NCBI GenBank assembly: GCA_900498135.1
Contig: LR026961.1
Location: forward strand, 3,704,011-3,768,010
Direction: 5' to 3'
Length of the DNA: 64,000 nucleotides
DNA from: an uncultured Desulfatiglans sp.
Lineage (GTDB): Bacteria; Desulfobacterota; DSM-4660; Desulfatiglandales; Desulfatiglandaceae
The translations under genes and the position numbers were made by a program. Under the pieces are notes generated by a model. The model had not been told where the DNA came from, ran no database searches, and saw only the letters and a list, made by a program, of their open reading frames with translations. Of the stretch, positions 33,615 to 41,454 are shown piece by piece. The stretch's first letter is position 1. Every line of letters begins with the position of its first letter.

Positions 33615-34559
33615 CTAATCTACCTGCGGTCTGGGATAGAGTCCACCCCTTTCGACCAGTTCCGGAACCTTGTCTTCCCATTCGATGGCCATAATGTGGA
33701 ATCCGTGCACGCCCTCCACTTCCTTGAGGCGCTGGATGGCCTCGACGCAGATGTCGAGCCCTTCCTGGGGCTGCTTCTCCTTCGGGACGCCGCTCATGCG
33801 CTTGATGATCTCGTCGGGCACATCCATGCCCGGCACCCGGTTCTTCATGTACTTGGCCATGCCGGCCGATTTCATGGGGGTGAGGCCCGCCAGGATGTGG
33901 ACCTTTTCGTGAAGGCCCCGGTCCCGGACACCCTGCATCCATTTCTCGAACTTGTCGAGGTTGTAGATGCACTGCGTCTGGATGAACTCGGCGCCGGCGG
34001 CGACCTTCTTGGCCAAGCGCGGGACACGGATCTCGAAGGGGTCGGCGAAAGGGTTCGCCGCGGCCCCCACGAACATGCGGGGCGGACGCTTGATCTCGTC
34101 GCCGCCGAGGAACTTGCCTTCGTCGCGCATCCGGCGCACGGTCTGGATGAGCTGCATCGAGTCGATGTCGAAGACGTTCTGGCCCGTCGAGCAGTCCCCG
34201 AAGGTCTGGTGGTCGCCCGACAGGCAGAGCATATTGAAGATGTCGAAGGAGGCGGCCCCCAGGATGTCGCTCTGGAGGGCGATCCGGTTGCGGTCCCGCA
34301 CGACCATCTGCAGGATGGGCTCGAGGCCCATGAGCTTGATGTGGATGCAGGATGCCAGGCTGCACAGCCGCGTGACCGATGTCTGGTTGTCGGTGATGTT
34401 GATGGCGTCGACATGATCCTTGATCATCTCGGCCTTCCGGGTGATCGCCTCGGGATCGCTCCCGCGCGGGGGGCCGCATTCGGATGTGACGGCGAGATGC
34501 CCGGCTGCCAGGATCTTTTCCAACTTGCTGGGTGTCTTCAGGGTAGCCATTCCGCTCAT
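33615..34559 (-). CDS. metF: Methylenetetrahydrofolate reductase, MetF-type catalytic subunit
   Basis: Flavoprotein of 314 residues interconverting 5,10-methylene- and 5-methyl-tetrahydrofolate in the methyl branch of the reductive acetyl-CoA pathway. TIM-barrel landmarks: AVTSECGPPRGSDPEAITRK, DAINITDNQTSVTRLCSLAS, DRNRIALQSDILGAASFDIF, LCLSGDHQTFGDC, RMFVGAAANPFADP, AEFIQTQCIYNLDKFEKWM and HILAGLTPMKSAGMAKYM. The start ATG 34559 forms an ATGA overlap with the metV stop; a far longer open frame to 35294 is the shadow of metV. Like acetogen-type enzymes it lacks its own NAD(P)H-binding C-domain and probably receives electrons through MetV, MvhD and the long HdrA encoded upstream. Confidence 0.93.
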   Translation of the reverse strand: MSGMATLKTPSKLEKILAAGHLAVTSECGPPRGSDPEAITRKAEMIKDHVDAINITDNQTSVTRLCSLASCIHIKLMGLEPILQMVVRDRNRIALQSDILGAASFDIFNMLCLSGDHQTFGDCSTGQNVFDIDSMQLIQTVRRMRDEGKFLGGDEIKRPPRMFVGAAANPFADPFEIRVPRLAKKVAAGAEFIQTQCIYNLDKFEKWMQGVRDRGLHEKVHILAGLTPMKSAGMAKYMKNRVPGMDVPDEIIKRMSGVPKEKQPQEGLDICVEAIQRLKEVEGVHGFHIMAIEWEDKVPELVERGGLYPRPQVD

Positions 34560-35224
34560 AGTCTCACATCCTCCCTCACGACGGTTCTGGGGCCGCCGGC
34601 CCGGTCGGTCGACCAATCCTTGATGGGCGCAAGGATCTCGTAGTCGTCGAGGCGTCCGAGCTCCTTCAGGCGGTCGATGATCAGCTGCCAGGCGCAGGGG
34701 ACGTCCTTGCTGATCTCGCACTTCCCCTTGGACGACCCTCCGCAGGGGCCGTTCAGGAGCCGCTTGGCGCAGCGCGAGATGGGGCAGATCCCGGCGGTGC
34801 GGCCCAGGATGCACTGTCCGCAACCCTGGCAGCGTTCGCTCCAGACGCCGCGCTCCTCCGTGACGCCCATGAAGCAGGTGTTGACGCCCGGGTAGACCGG
34901 GGTCGAGAAGTACTTCTCCGCCATGAACTGAACGCCGACACCGCAGGCGATGGAGACGACGGCATCGTATTTGTCGATCACGTTCCGGATCTCCTCGAGG
35001 TACTCGTGGTCGCACTGGCGCTCGAGCGTGACCTCGTCGATCGTGACGTCCTTGCCCTGGTTCATGAAGTACATGCGCAGCGCGGAGGCGAGGACCCCGA
35101 CCTCCTTCTTCCCGCCCGCCTCGCAGACGGTGACGCACTCGTTGCAGCCCGCTACGAGAATGGATTGTTTGTCCTTCACGTAGTCGATGATCTCTTCGAT
35201 CGGTTTTCTTTCGGCGACAATCAT
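34556..35224 (-). CDS. metV: MetV-like partner of MetF (MTHFR C-terminal / zinc-Fe-S protein)
   Basis: A 222-residue partner subunit found with MetF in acetogens and sulfate reducers. N-terminal half: QSILVAGCNECVTVCEAGGK, then EVTLERQCDHEYLEEIRNV, and IACGVGVQFMAEKYFSTPVY. The C-terminal half is cysteine-rich: NTCFMGV, ERCQGCGQCILGRTAGICPI, SRCAKRLLNGPCGGSSKGKC, with EISKDVPCAW. The cysteines suit zinc and/or iron-sulfur sites that pass electrons to MetF. The four-base overlap with metF and equal strand indicate stoichiometric production. Known in the family as the second subunit of the MetFV complex; the mechanism of electron entry here is inferred. Confidence 0.9.
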   Translation of the reverse strand: MIVAERKPIEEIIDYVKDKQSILVAGCNECVTVCEAGGKKEVGVLASALRMYFMNQGKDVTIDEVTLERQCDHEYLEEIRNVIDKYDAVVSIACGVGVQFMAEKYFSTPVYPGVNTCFMGVTEERGVWSERCQGCGQCILGRTAGICPISRCAKRLLNGPCGGSSKGKCEISKDVPCAWQLIIDRLKELGRLDDYEILAPIKDWSTDRAGGPRTVVREDVRL

Positions 35225-35480: not shown

Positions 35481-35906
35481 TCAGGCGGCCTTCCTGGCGA
35501 GCTTGATCGGATTGGGGCCGAGGGCCTTGATCTTCTCCGTCATCTCGGTGGCGATCTCCGCGAAGCGGGGCCCCTCGCCGGAAGACAGGTTGTACATCTG
35601 CAGCCGCTCTCCGCCGATGCCGACGGCGTCGAGGATCTTCTGCGCCGCCTCCACCCGCCGGCGCGCCCGGAGGTTCCCGCGGATGAACCGGCAGTCCCCC
35701 TCCATGCAGCCGACGATGTAGACGCCGTCGGCGCCCTTCTCGAAGGCGTGCAGCAGGTGGATGATGTCCACCTTGCCGGTGCAGGGGACGCGGATGATGC
35801 GGATCGTCCCGGGGTACTGAAGCCTCATCGAACCTGCCAGGTCCGCGGCGGTGTACCCTCAGAAGTTGCAGGCAAATGCGACGATGATCGGTTCGAACTG
35901 TTCCAT
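35481..35906 (-). CDS. mvhD: MvhD-like hydrogenase/heterodisulfide reductase iron-sulfur subunit, probable selenoprotein
   Basis: Small [2Fe-2S] electron-transfer protein of 141 residues that couples HdrA to partner oxidoreductases. Reading starts at ATG 35906 (MEQFEPIIVAFACNF) and meets UGA at 35859-35861, then continues in the same frame as GYTAADLAGSMRLQYPGTIR, IIRVPCTGKVDIIHLLHAFE, GADGVYIVGCMEGDCRFIRG and NLRARRRVEAAQKIL. In MvhD the position after CN(W/F) is a conserved cluster cysteine, so the UGA is read as selenocysteine 16. A hairpin 15 bases after the UGA supports recoding. An ordinary gene caller would start at ATG 35828 and lose the N-terminus. It lies 207 bases after the HdrA gene and 257 bases before metV. 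Confidence 0.88.
35830..35861 (-). promoter_or_regulatory. Candidate bacterial SECIS element in mvhD
   Basis: Fourteen bases after the UGA (35859-35861) the mRNA can form GGACCT-GGC-AGGTTC (six pairs including one G-U, three-base loop) at 35830-35844. Position and size are those of SelB-recognised hairpins. Loop sequence is short, so the exact fold needs computing. Confidence 0.5.
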
Positions 35907-36112
35907 GGTGATGTCCCCTCTGCGGCAAAGTCTGTGCCTTGCCGAACTGTTTGGTTGAGACGGCCCCCTGGGCTGCGGGGCATCCGGCTTTGTGTTGTGC
36001 GGAGCCGCCCGGTGCTGCCCGGAGGGTGGAGTTCCCCGCGGCCTGTGGTCAGCCGAACCGCAGGCCGGGGACCCCTTTTCCAGGGAGCATCCCGGCCTTG
36101 GCGGCGCACCGG

Positions 36113-39100
36113 CTAAAGCACCCCCTCCAGCAGGGCGTCCACCTTGCTGATGAGCTGTTCGTCCTCGTACCAGTTGAGCTCGATCGCCTTGGCCGGGCAC
36201 TCGGCCGCGCAGATGCCGCAGCCGTGGCAGAGGGCCTCGTCGATCTCGCTCGCCCCGAGCTCGTTGATGCGCGGCACGCCGTACGGGCAGGAGCGCACGC
36301 AGATGAGGCAGGAGGCGCACTTGTCCTGGTCCACCCGGGCCGTGACCGCCGAGAGGGTGATCTCGGTCTGGGAGAGGAACGTGGTGGCGCGCGAAGCGGC
36401 CGCCAGCGCCTGGGCGATGGTCTCGGAGACGAGCTTCGGGCTGTGTGCGGTGCCGCAGACGAAGACCCCGTCGCTCGCCATCTCGACCGGGCGGAGCTTG
36501 ACGTGCGCTTCCAGGAAGTACCCTTCGGCGTTCCGCGGCACCTTCATGATCGTCGCGAGTTCCTCGGTGTCCTGGGCGCGCATGCCGGCGCTGAGGGCCA
36601 CGAGGTCGGCGGCGACCTGGATGTCGCGCTGCAGGACGTGGTCGGTGAAGGTGACCGTGAGCCCGCCGTCCGAGCTTTCCACCCGGGGCGGGTTTTCCGG
36701 CTCGAAGCGGGCGAAGATCACGCCCATCTCGCGGGCCTGGCGGTAGTAGTCTTCGAGGAGCCCGTACATCCGCATGTCGCGGTAGAGGATGAAGACATCG
36801 GTGGCCGGGTTCATCTCCTTGATGTGGATGGCGTTCTTCACGGCGCTCTGGCAGCAGATCCTGGAGCAGTTGGGGTTCTCCTCGTTGCGGGATCCGACGC
36901 ACTGGATCATGACCACGCGCTCGACGCCGTCGAGGCCCGTTTCCTCGAGCCGCCGGCCGAGCTCGATCTGCGTGAGCACGCCCTCGTTCTCCCCGTAGAG
37001 GAATTCCTTCGGCACGTACTCCGTCGCGCCCGTGGCGAGGATCACCACGCCGTGGTCGATCTTCCGCTCGTACATACCGGGGCCGACCAGGACCTCCGTC
37101 GTGAAGTTCCCCTTGAAGCCGCTGAAGTCGACCACCAGGCTGTTGGTCAGGACCTGGATCTTCTCGTTCTGGTCCACCCGCTCGATCAGCTTGTCGATGT
37201 AGGCGCGGATGTCGGCGCCTTCGATGGTGGTGGTGAGCTGCCGTGAGAGGCCGCCAAGCTGCGGCTCCTTTTCGACGATCACCGTCTCGAACCCCTGGTC
37301 GGCCAGGCCGAGGGCCGCGTTCATGCCGGCCACGCCGCCGCCGACGATGAGGGCGCGCTTGTTGACCGGGATCCGCTTCTCGTGGAGCGGGTGCAGGAAG
37401 CCGGCCCGGGCGACCGCCATGCGGACGAGGTCCTTGGCCTTGACCGTCGCGGCCTCGTGGTCGCCCGCGTGCACCCAGGAGTCCTGGTCGCGGATGTTGG
37501 CCATCTCGAAAAGATACTTGTTCAGGCCGCAGGCCTGGAGGGTCTCCTGGAAGAGCGGCTCGTGGGTCCTCGGCGAACAGGAGGCGACCACGACGCGGTT
37601 CAGGTTGTGCTCCTTGATGACTTCCTTGATCTTGTCCTGGGTGTCCTGGGAACAGGTGAAGAGGTTGTTGTCGGCAAAGGCCACGTGGGGCAGCCCCGCC
37701 GCGTACTCGGTCACCGCCGGGACGTCCACCACGCCGGCGATGTTGATCCCGCAGTTGCAGACGAAGACGCCGATGCGCGGCTCCTGCCCGGCTACGTCGA
37801 TCTCGTCCGGGATTTCCAGGACCTTCGTCTCGAGCCAGCGCGCCGCGTCGAGCTTGGAACCGGCCGCGCAGGCCGCCGCGCTCGCCTCGACGACCGAGGT
37901 GGGGATGTCCTTCGGGCCCTGGAAGATGCCGCAGGCATAGACCCCCGGCCGCGAGGTGCTGACGGGCCTGAAGGGGTCGGTGGCGGCGAAGTGGTAGTGG
38001 TCGAGGTCGACCCCGACCCGCTCGGCGAGCCGGATCGTTTCGGTGTTGATCTGGAGGCCGACCGAAAGGACCACGATATCGAAGGCCTCGCCGTGGATGA
38101 CGCCGTTTTCATCCGAGTACTCAATCTGCAGGTCATCGGTCTCGGGGATCGGTGTGATACTGTGGACCCGTGAGCGCACGAACCGGACGCCGTGCTCGCG
38201 CTCCGCCCGGTTGTAGTACTTCTCGTAGTCCTTCCCGTAGGTGCGCATGTCCATGAAGAAGATCGCCGTGTCGAGTGGTTCCTTGCTGTGGTCCTTGGCG
38301 ATCACGGCCTCCTTGATGGCGTACATGCAGCAGACGGCCGAGCAGTAGCCGTTCCCGCACGTGTGCGGGTCGCGCGAGCCCACGCACTGGAGCCAGGCGA
38401 TCTTCCGCGGCTCCTTCTGGTCCGACGGCCGCTGGAGGTGCCCCATCGTGGGGCCGGAGGCGCTCAGGATCCGCTCGAACTCGCCGCTCGTGAGGATGTT
38501 CGGGTGCGACTTGTAGTGGTAGAGTTCCTCGTAAGGGGAGGGGTCGAACATGTCGTTGCCGGGGCAGAGGATGACGGACCCCACGGTGATCTCCCGCTCG
38601 AGGGCCATCTGTTCATGGTCGATCGCCTGGGCGAGGCAGGCCTTCACACACTGGTAGCACTCGCTGCAGATCCCGCACTTGAGGCAGCGCTGGGCCTCCT
38701 CCCGGACCTCCTCCTCGCTGAAGCCGAGGTTGATCTCCCCGAAGTTCCCGCGCCGCTCTTGGACGGGCAGGTGGCGCATCTCGACCCGCGGGCGGAAGGG
38801 CTCCCCCTTGGCGTCGGGCTTCTCGTAGGACCAGTCCTTTTCGCGCCCCTCGCGGAGGTCGACGTTGTTCAGATACCGGTCGATGCTCTCGGCCGCGGTC
38901 TTGCCACATTCGACCGCCTCCACGACCGATTTCGGGCCGTAGAAGACGTCGCCGCCCGCAAAGACCCACGGGGTCGGTGTCTGGAGCGTCACCGGGTCGG
39001 CCGTGAGGCCCCCGCGCGCGCCGACCGTGAGCCCTTCCTTCTCGGCGTAGGAGAGATCCGCCGCCTGGCCGATGGCCACGATGACCGTGTCGGCCTCGAG

Positions 39101-40552
39101 GGTGGTCAGATCCGCCTCGTCGTACTGCGGGCGGAAGGCGCCCTTTTCGTCGAAGACGGCGGTGCAGCGCTTGAACTCGAGCCCGGCGAGCCGCCCGTCC
39201 TTCTCGATGAAGGCGCGCGGGCCGAGGCTGTTGACGATCTTGACCCCCTCCTCGAGCGCCTCTTCGATCTCGTAGTCCCAGGCCGGCATCTCCTCGCGCT
39301 TCTCGAGGCAGGCGAGGGTGACGTCCTTTCCGCCTTTGCGCAGAGCAGTCAGGGCTACGTCCACGGCCACATTGCCGCCCCCCACCACGATGACGCGCTC
39401 GCCCACCGCGACCGGCCGTTCGAGCGCCGCGTCACGCAGAAAGTCGACGCCCTTCAGCACCCCGGGGAGGTCCTCGCCCGGCACGTTGAGCCCGCGGCTC
39501 AGGTGAAGGCCCGTGCCGATGAAGACGGCCTTGTACCCGTCAGCCTCGAGCCCTTCGAGCGTGACGTCCACGCCGAAGGCGACCCCGGTCCGGATCTCGA
39601 CCCCCATGGCCTCGACGATGCCGATCTCGCGGGCCAGGATGTCGCGGGGCAGCCGGTAGGCCGGGATGCCGACGGCCATCATGCCGCCCGCCACCGGGAG
39701 CTTTTCGAAGACCGTGACGGTGTATCCCTTCAGCGCCAGGAAATAGGCCGCCGCCAGGCCGGCCGGACCGGCGCCGATGACCGCCACCTTTTCGTCCCGC
39801 TTCTCCTCCGGGAGCGACGGCACATAGGGCTCATCACCGCTCCGGTCGACGTCGGCCAGGAACCGGTGAAGGTACTGGATCGAGATCGGTTCGTCCACGT
39901 CCCCCCGCGTGCAGATCCCCTCGCACGGGTGGTGGCAAACGCGCCCGCAGACCGCGGGGAAGGGGTGCGCCTCCATGAAGAGCTCGAGCGCCTCACGGTA
40001 TTTCCCCTGGTTGATGAGGGCGATGTAGCCCTGGATGCTGACGTGCGCGGGGCAGGTGGCCTTGCAGGGGGCGGTCCCGCGTTTGCTGATGGCGTAGCCG
40101 CCCGGGATGGCCTGGGGGTATTTCTTGTAGGTGGCTTTGCGTTTGCTGAGCCCGAGGTTGTACTCGTCGTCCACTTCGATCGGGCAGACCTTGGTGCACT
40201 CCCCGCAGCTCGTGCACTTCGAGAGGTCCACGTAGCGGGGCTCCAGCCTCACGCGGGCCTGGAACAGCCCCTCGTCCCCTTCGAGGTCCATCAGTTCCGC
40301 GTTGGTCAACAACTCGATGTTCAGGTGCCGGCCGACCTCGACCAGCTTGGGTGAGATAATTCACATCGCGCAGTCATTGGTGGGAAATGTCTTGTCCAAC
40401 TGGGACATGAGCCCGCCGATGGCGGACGATTTTTCCACCAGATAGACATAGTACCCCGAGTTGGCGAGGTCGAGGGCGGACTGCATCCCGGCGATGCCGC
40501 CCCCCACCACCATGACCGATCCCGATACCTTCTTTGCCTGATTCTCCGTCAT
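36113..40552 (-). CDS. hdrA: Long HdrA (HdrL-like): HdrA with inserted GltD/NfnB module plus second HdrA; probable selenoprotein
   Basis: Flavin/Fe-S protein of about 1,479 residues. It starts at ATG 40552 ([20 protein letters not shown]). UGA at 40361-40363 (residue 64) stands in the HdrA motif [19 protein letters not shown], where relatives have Cys, so it is read as selenocysteine. Order of modules: HdrA FAD part (1-110); ferredoxin [12 protein letters not shown] (about 113); GltD/NfnB-like NAD(P)H module (about 155-600) with [23 protein letters not shown] and [13 protein letters not shown]; ferredoxin-like [13 protein letters not shown] (about 622) and the rest of the first HdrA; then a second HdrA from [13 protein letters not shown] (about 927) with FAD motif [13 protein letters not shown] (about 1070) and two C-terminal [4Fe-4S] motifs. 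I infer flavin-based electron bifurcation or confurcation between NAD(P)H, ferredoxin and MetFV/MvhD. Confidence 0.92.
40327..40363 (-). promoter_or_regulatory. Candidate bacterial SECIS element in hdrA
   Basis: Starting 15 bases after the UGA (40361-40363), GCTGG (40342-40346) pairs with CCGGC (40327-40331) around the loop TCGAGGTCGG. The loop includes GGTC, similar to the GGUC apical loop recognised by SelB in formate dehydrogenase mRNAs. Confidence 0.55.
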
Positions 40553-40569: not shown

Positions 40570-41454
40570 TTAGAGCCTGGCGATGTCCAGGACCTGGGGG
40601 AGCTTGTCCTCCCACCCGATGGTTGAAATCAAGGTTCCGGCAAGGCCCATCTCCCTGAAGGCGGCTACGAGTTCGCCGGCGATCTTCGTGCACTGGTAGG
40701 CCTTGTCGCCGGCCTTCTGGATCGACTGGATGGTGTCGGGCGGAATGGAGATGTGGCGGATGTTGCGGTCGATGTAGCGCGCCATGCCGGCGGATTTGAG
40801 CAGCAGGACGGTCGGGATGACGGCCACGCGCGAGGTGTCGATGCGCTTCAGGACGGCCTTCAGCCGGTCGGGCTCGAAGATCGGGGTGGTGACGATGTAG
40901 CGCACGCCGAGGTCGATCTTCTTCTGGAGCTCGGCCAGCTCCACCTCGAGGGCGCCGCCCGCCGCCCCGGCGTTGAAGGTGGTGCCCACGATGAAGGCCG
41001 GGGGAGGGCCCTGCAGTTCGATGCCGGCCATGTCCTTGCCTCCCCCCAGGGTCTGGAGCATGCCGAGGAGTTCGAGCAGGTCGAGGTCGTTGACCGCCCG
41101 GGCCTGGTGGTGGTCGCCGAAGGTGATGTCCTCCCCCTGCACCGCCATGACGGATTGGATCCCGAGAGCGCCCGCCCCGAGCATGTCGGCCTGGAGCGCC
41201 AGGCGGTTCCGGTCGCGGCAGCAGGCCTGCAGGACCGTGTCGAACCCGTGCCCCTGCAGGAAGGCGCAGCCCGCGAGCGAACTCGCCTTCATGACGGCGT
41301 TGGCCATCTCGGGGACCACGAGGGCGTCCACGCGGCCTTTGACCAGACCGGCGTTCTTCAGCAGCATCGAAAAATCCGACCCCTTCGGCGGCTCCAGTTC
41401 GCCCAGAACGATAAACTCACCGGCTTTGATCTTTGCCTCCAGTTTCATGCTCAT
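40570..41454 (-). CDS. MetF-family protein, second homologue in the Hdr operon
   Basis: A 294-residue TIM-barrel protein related to methylenetetrahydrofolate reductase: [114 protein letters not shown] and [19 protein letters not shown]. It differs clearly from the MetF encoded at 34 kb and lacks some of its folate-pocket motifs (for example GDHQTFGD becomes [10 protein letters not shown]). It may act on another one-carbon carrier, or be a regulatory or folate-binding subunit. A GGAGGAATC ribosome site precedes the ATG. Its stop lies only 17 bases before the HdrA start, so the two are strongly co-expressed. Confidence 0.85.

Follow-up and report, generated by a model that had tools for sequence, protein, structure and literature searches.

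Selenocysteine at an in-frame UGA of mvhD in an hdrA–mvhD–metV–metF operon of an uncultured Desulfatiglans

Analysis of a 64,000-nucleotide stretch of DNA from an uncultured Desulfatiglans sp. (hereafter the window) confirmed that its mvhD gene carries selenocysteine (Sec) at an in-frame UGA. Comparative evidence was decisive for this reading, namely a TGA conserved among relatives and a downstream hairpin whose codons are frozen. In the explanation that we propose, and in which we have high confidence, the genome's own bacterial Sec system would decode the UGA, with the hairpin 14 nt further on as its signal. Full-length Sec-MvhD would result, a small [2Fe-2S] electron carrier joining HdrA to a partner enzyme, which in this operon would be MetVF. 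Given MetVF as the partner and the GltD-type NAD(P)H module that HdrA would bring to the complex, the assembly would most likely be an electron-bifurcating or -confurcating methylene-THF reductase of the Wood–Ljungdahl methyl branch. Comparison confirmed a central electron-transfer subunit of this branch as a selenoprotein in almost every Desulfobacterota relative sampled.

Reading frame and gene neighbourhood

The mvhD gene (FlpD family) occupies positions 35481–35906 of the minus strand and encodes 141 residues, from ATG 35906 to a normal stop at 35483–35481, with a Shine–Dalgarno-like AGAGGGG at 35915–35921. The N-terminus reads MEQFEPIIVAFACNF-U16-GYTAADLAG, and the Sec codon (35859–35861, minus strand) replaces the second cysteine of a CxxC motif at residue 16. 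The PF02662 profile (FlpD/MvhD) was matched over its whole length (profile positions 1–123) with 167.8 bits, compared with a curated cut-off of 22.3. The conserved cysteines of the family, C13, C42, C67 and C72, are all there, and the fifth position is Sec16. Against the NCBIfam VhuD model NF045873, the window MvhD scored 181.4 bits and did not reach the cut-off of 215; on this profile evidence, we regard it as a relative of VhuD and do not class it as VhuD. The name MvhD is used here to denote the subunit type.

Upstream of mvhD, an hdrA-like fusion of the 'HdrL' type (36113–40552, minus strand) comprises an HdrA N part, a GltD/NfnB-like NAD(P)H module and a second HdrA. A preliminary description of the locus had placed a second Sec in this adjacent subunit, and the first UGA of the operon was indeed found in frame at 40361–40363 (minus strand), with Sec at NDCAMU. 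Ordinary open-reading-frame analysis halts at UGA, so that both mvhD and hdrA are truncated by it. Among relatives whose HdrA could be seen, nearly all share the hdrA UGA. On its 3' side, an 18-nt frozen block, CTGGTCGAGGTCGGCCGG (40328–40345, minus strand), is a putative SECIS element, which is the same in nearly all Sec-HdrA relatives and altered in five Cys-HdrA versions (L057, L060, L096, L097 and L106).

Directly downstream of mvhD lies metV (34556–35224, minus strand; PF12225, the methylene-THF reductase C-terminal family), followed by metF (33615–34559, minus strand; PF02219, the MTHFR family), which overlaps the metV stop. The resulting order is hdrA(Sec)–mvhD(Sec)–metV–metF. A second MetF-like gene (40570–41454, minus strand; PF02219, 61 bits) is located upstream of hdrA, as it is in many relatives, and neither hdrB nor hdrC was found adjoining in the stretch of the window read at this locus. 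Since metV–metF are kept beside mvhD in all 69 loci with enough downstream sequence, the partner of MvhD here is likely a methylene-THF reductase (MetVF)/HdrA complex and not a hydrogenase.

The presence of two Sec residues in neighbouring subunits had been taken in the preliminary description to suggest a redox interface tuned by selenium. Co-occurrence stood, in that most relatives whose HdrA could be seen have both UGAs, but obligate coupling did not, as L057, L060 and L096 combine Sec-MvhD with Cys-HdrA. On these gene combinations, the HdrA and MvhD residues are judged to be separable in evolution and not obligately paired, and we consider it unlikely that they form a functional pair tuning one redox interface.

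The UGA and its hairpin among relatives

The genome was searched as the single 4.8-Mb contig that carries the window. The Sec genes, whose absence would have refuted the preliminary description by its own terms, were all found: tRNA-Sec (selC; 71.7 bits, anticodon tca, i.e. UCA), SelA (624.9 bits), SelB (386.8 bits) and SelD (369.4 bits), the set by which a bacterial selenoprotein system is recognised. The reading frame of SelD itself holds a TGA.

The 80 closest relatives among named genomes were retrieved with a query from which the UGA had been omitted and in which the second Sec position had been masked. Most were metagenome-assembled genomes or isolates under the label Desulfobacterales, Desulfobacteraceae or Deltaproteobacteria. 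The codon at residue 16 was TGA in 78 and TGC in two (L097 and L106), which bears out the earlier claim of an MvhD selenoprotein with UGA at the second cysteine of CxxC; across all 81 genes, the count was 79 TGA and two TGC, with no TAA or TAG. The same-genus genome G006 has the identical TGA, and when 60 genomes of the class were searched, each of the 43 best matches contained a single in-frame TGA. The two relatives with Cys at residue 16 are a counterpoint to the Sec explanation, and methanogen MvhD structures likewise have Cys at this position. The search for further Sec-containing MvhD, proposed in the preliminary description, yielded, in addition to these 78 of 80 relatives, four FlpD genes of the same genome besides the window mvhD, each with one in-frame TGA.

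The six-pair hairpin that had been described 14 bases downstream was located at 35844–35830 (minus strand) as a bacterial-type GGACCU-GGC-AGGUUC. With the U of UGA numbered 1, its pairs are G18–C32, G19–U31, A20–U30, C21–G29, C22–G28 and U23–A27, closed by the loop GGC. The operon is GC-rich, and 13.7% of 2,234 in-frame positions in it match or exceed the folding of this hairpin, so its folding energy does not stand out; a hairpin in a single sequence is therefore not evidence by itself, and folding energy was dropped as uninformative. An Rfam scan of the window returned nothing at the gathering threshold, which neither backs nor counters the hairpin.

Codon usage was far more telling. In Sec genes, codons +5 to +9 past the UGA (A-D-L-A-G) were identical in 97–100% of pairs with the same residue, whereas the other codons of the examined stretch were mostly 20–65% identical, with the exception of an invariant Met codon and one Phe codon (86%). 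A single 15-mer encodes ADLAG in 97 of 106 Sec16 genes, compared with 20 different 15-mers in 25 Cys16 genes; 91 of the 106 Sec genes, and no Cys gene, preserve all six hairpin pairs. Because these codons are synonymously frozen in Sec genes only, while matched Cys genes vary, the hairpin is identified, on the strength of this sequence comparison, as the SECIS element. The matching of Sec and Cys genes delimits the element tightly and is a useful addition.

According to one alternative, translation would start at the internal ATG 35828 (Met27) and produce a 115-residue MvhD that lacks the N-terminal CxxC, and the sequence ahead of it would be a leader or remnant. This ATG lies 11 codons past the UGA, is invariant in near relatives and is preceded by a weak AGG. 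However, the 12 codons 5' of the UGA show pairwise differences of 0.198, 0.082 and 0.533 at codon positions 1, 2 and 3, respectively, a pattern of purifying selection that marks them as translated coding sequence and argues against initiation at this site. Moreover, C13 is invariant (128/128), the TGC relatives have an unbroken full-length frame, and the Sec relatives L146 and L148 lack Met27 yet retain the hairpin. Initiation only at this ATG, which the preliminary description had named as refuting its own reading, is thus disfavoured and considered highly improbable. The UGA might instead be an error of sequencing, or a nonsense mutation, in what is otherwise a plain Cys gene, as could be imagined from the Cys versions in L097 and L106; this has a negligible probability, since it was already refuted by the TGA shared by 78 of 80 independent records and by G006, and since the codon is never TAA or TAG and the SECIS element is under constraint.

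Relation to known systems

Sec-containing FrhD (MvhD) and HdrA were reported in Deltaproteobacteria in 2006, in some cases within one operon (PMC1794560), and Sec-HdrA/HdrL and Sec-MvhD of Desulfobacterium autotrophicum followed in 2009 (PMC2702500). In a 2026 review, FrhD/MvhD/VhuD is among the selenoprotein families verified by experiment, its motif being given as CxxU and its number of Sec as at most two (PMC13188914). Given that Sec-MvhD beside Sec-HdrA has been on record in Deltaproteobacteria since 2006–2009, the present finding is real and already known in kind: Sec-MvhD is well conserved in sulfate reducers and bacteria related to them.

The Sec-FrhD/MvhD proteins of Syntrophobacter fumaroxidans and Syntrophus (PMC1794560, PMC13188914) share with the window the CxxU motif, a neighbouring Sec-HdrA and a bacterial Sec system. 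However, the five-gene operon published for Deltaproteobacteria (PMC1794560, PMC13188914) contains the hydrogenase genes frhG–frhA plus glpC, where metV–metF are the neighbours here. D. autotrophicum HRM2 (PMC2702500) likewise has a large Sec-containing HdrA/GltD fusion and Sec-MvhD genes adjoining hdrA/hdrL, but the loci described there go with genes for hydrogenase or formate dehydrogenase or with dsr genes, unlike the present one. The gene order hdrA–mvhD–metV–metF is instead of the Moorella type: the HdrABC-MvhD-MetVF system of Moorella thermoacetica (PMC5736913, PMC6085437) also associates mvhD with hdrA and metV–metF, the differences being that HdrA is here a fusion of the HdrL type and that no hdrBC gene was found beside hdrA.

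The best-scoring solved MvhD was that of PDB 9sfi/9t1s, by name a hydrogenase-type complex. Chain K of 9sfi and its HdrA chain have X, a non-standard residue, at the positions aligned to the MvhD and HdrA Sec sites, and the MvhD has a further X at residue 67, where the window MvhD has Cys. We read these X residues as Sec.

Residue 16, residue 67 and the cluster ligands

The [2Fe-2S] cluster of MvhD has been published (PMC6019823). An alignment of 128 MvhD proteins revealed five conserved Cys positions (13, 16, 42, 67 and 72), with Cys invariant at 13, 42 and 72. Sec was found only at residue 16 (94 proteins), at residue 67 (25) or at both (1), proportions that do not represent frequencies because the distant part of the set was picked largely for having stops. 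Residue 12 (35871–35873) is Ala in the window MvhD and Cys in 96 of the 128 aligned relatives (CCNFU).

The preliminary description had held that the replaced Cys binds a cluster. Its placement at the second Cys position was correct, but the role of obligate ligand was not sustained, as eight distant FlpD proteins (L193, L195, L197, L199 and L204–L207) have G, S, D or V at residue 16 and keep the other four Cys. As the cluster needs four ligands and residue 16 is dispensable in these proteins, C13, C42, C67 and C72 are the best ligand candidates, and Sec16 is probably a neighbour of the cluster ligand C13 and not itself an obligate ligand. This argument is a useful addition to what was known of Sec-MvhD. 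From the same dispensability of residue 16, compared with the other four Cys, it may tentatively be proposed that Sec16 is a second-sphere selenol beside the [2Fe-2S] cluster that gates electron transfer and that Sec67 is a true selenolate ligand, although we would put this somewhat below an even chance. In the same tentative picture, the family would have passed between these Sec states along its tree, each site having a frozen SECIS element of its own and both elements having the core ACCUGG in common. Sec16, Sec67 and Cys variants constitute natural test cases for selenium as an Fe–S ligand versus a neighbour of one.

For residue 67, a hairpin pattern ATTACC[A/T]G..GGTAAT, which was written after some of the sequences had been viewed, was present in 25/25 Sec genes and 0/10 Cys genes. 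At least 13 changes of Sec state were counted on a tree of 79 proteins built from a short, poorly resolved alignment.

Two MvhD genes (L156 and L194) have an in-frame UGA at residue 16 and another at residue 67, like the X pattern of PDB 9sfi chain K. Within the Desulfatiglans genome itself, two MvhD paralogues (L003:1501–1911 and L004:1501–1896, at genome positions 2373470 and 3317868) have a UGA at residue 67 (SGUHxG[DE]CHY) together with a hairpin, the L003 hairpin core ACCUGG being similar to the core of the residue-16 SECIS element. Two further MvhD genes (L005 and L006, at 999350 and 2605448) are identical in protein and local sequence and apparently arose by recent duplication.
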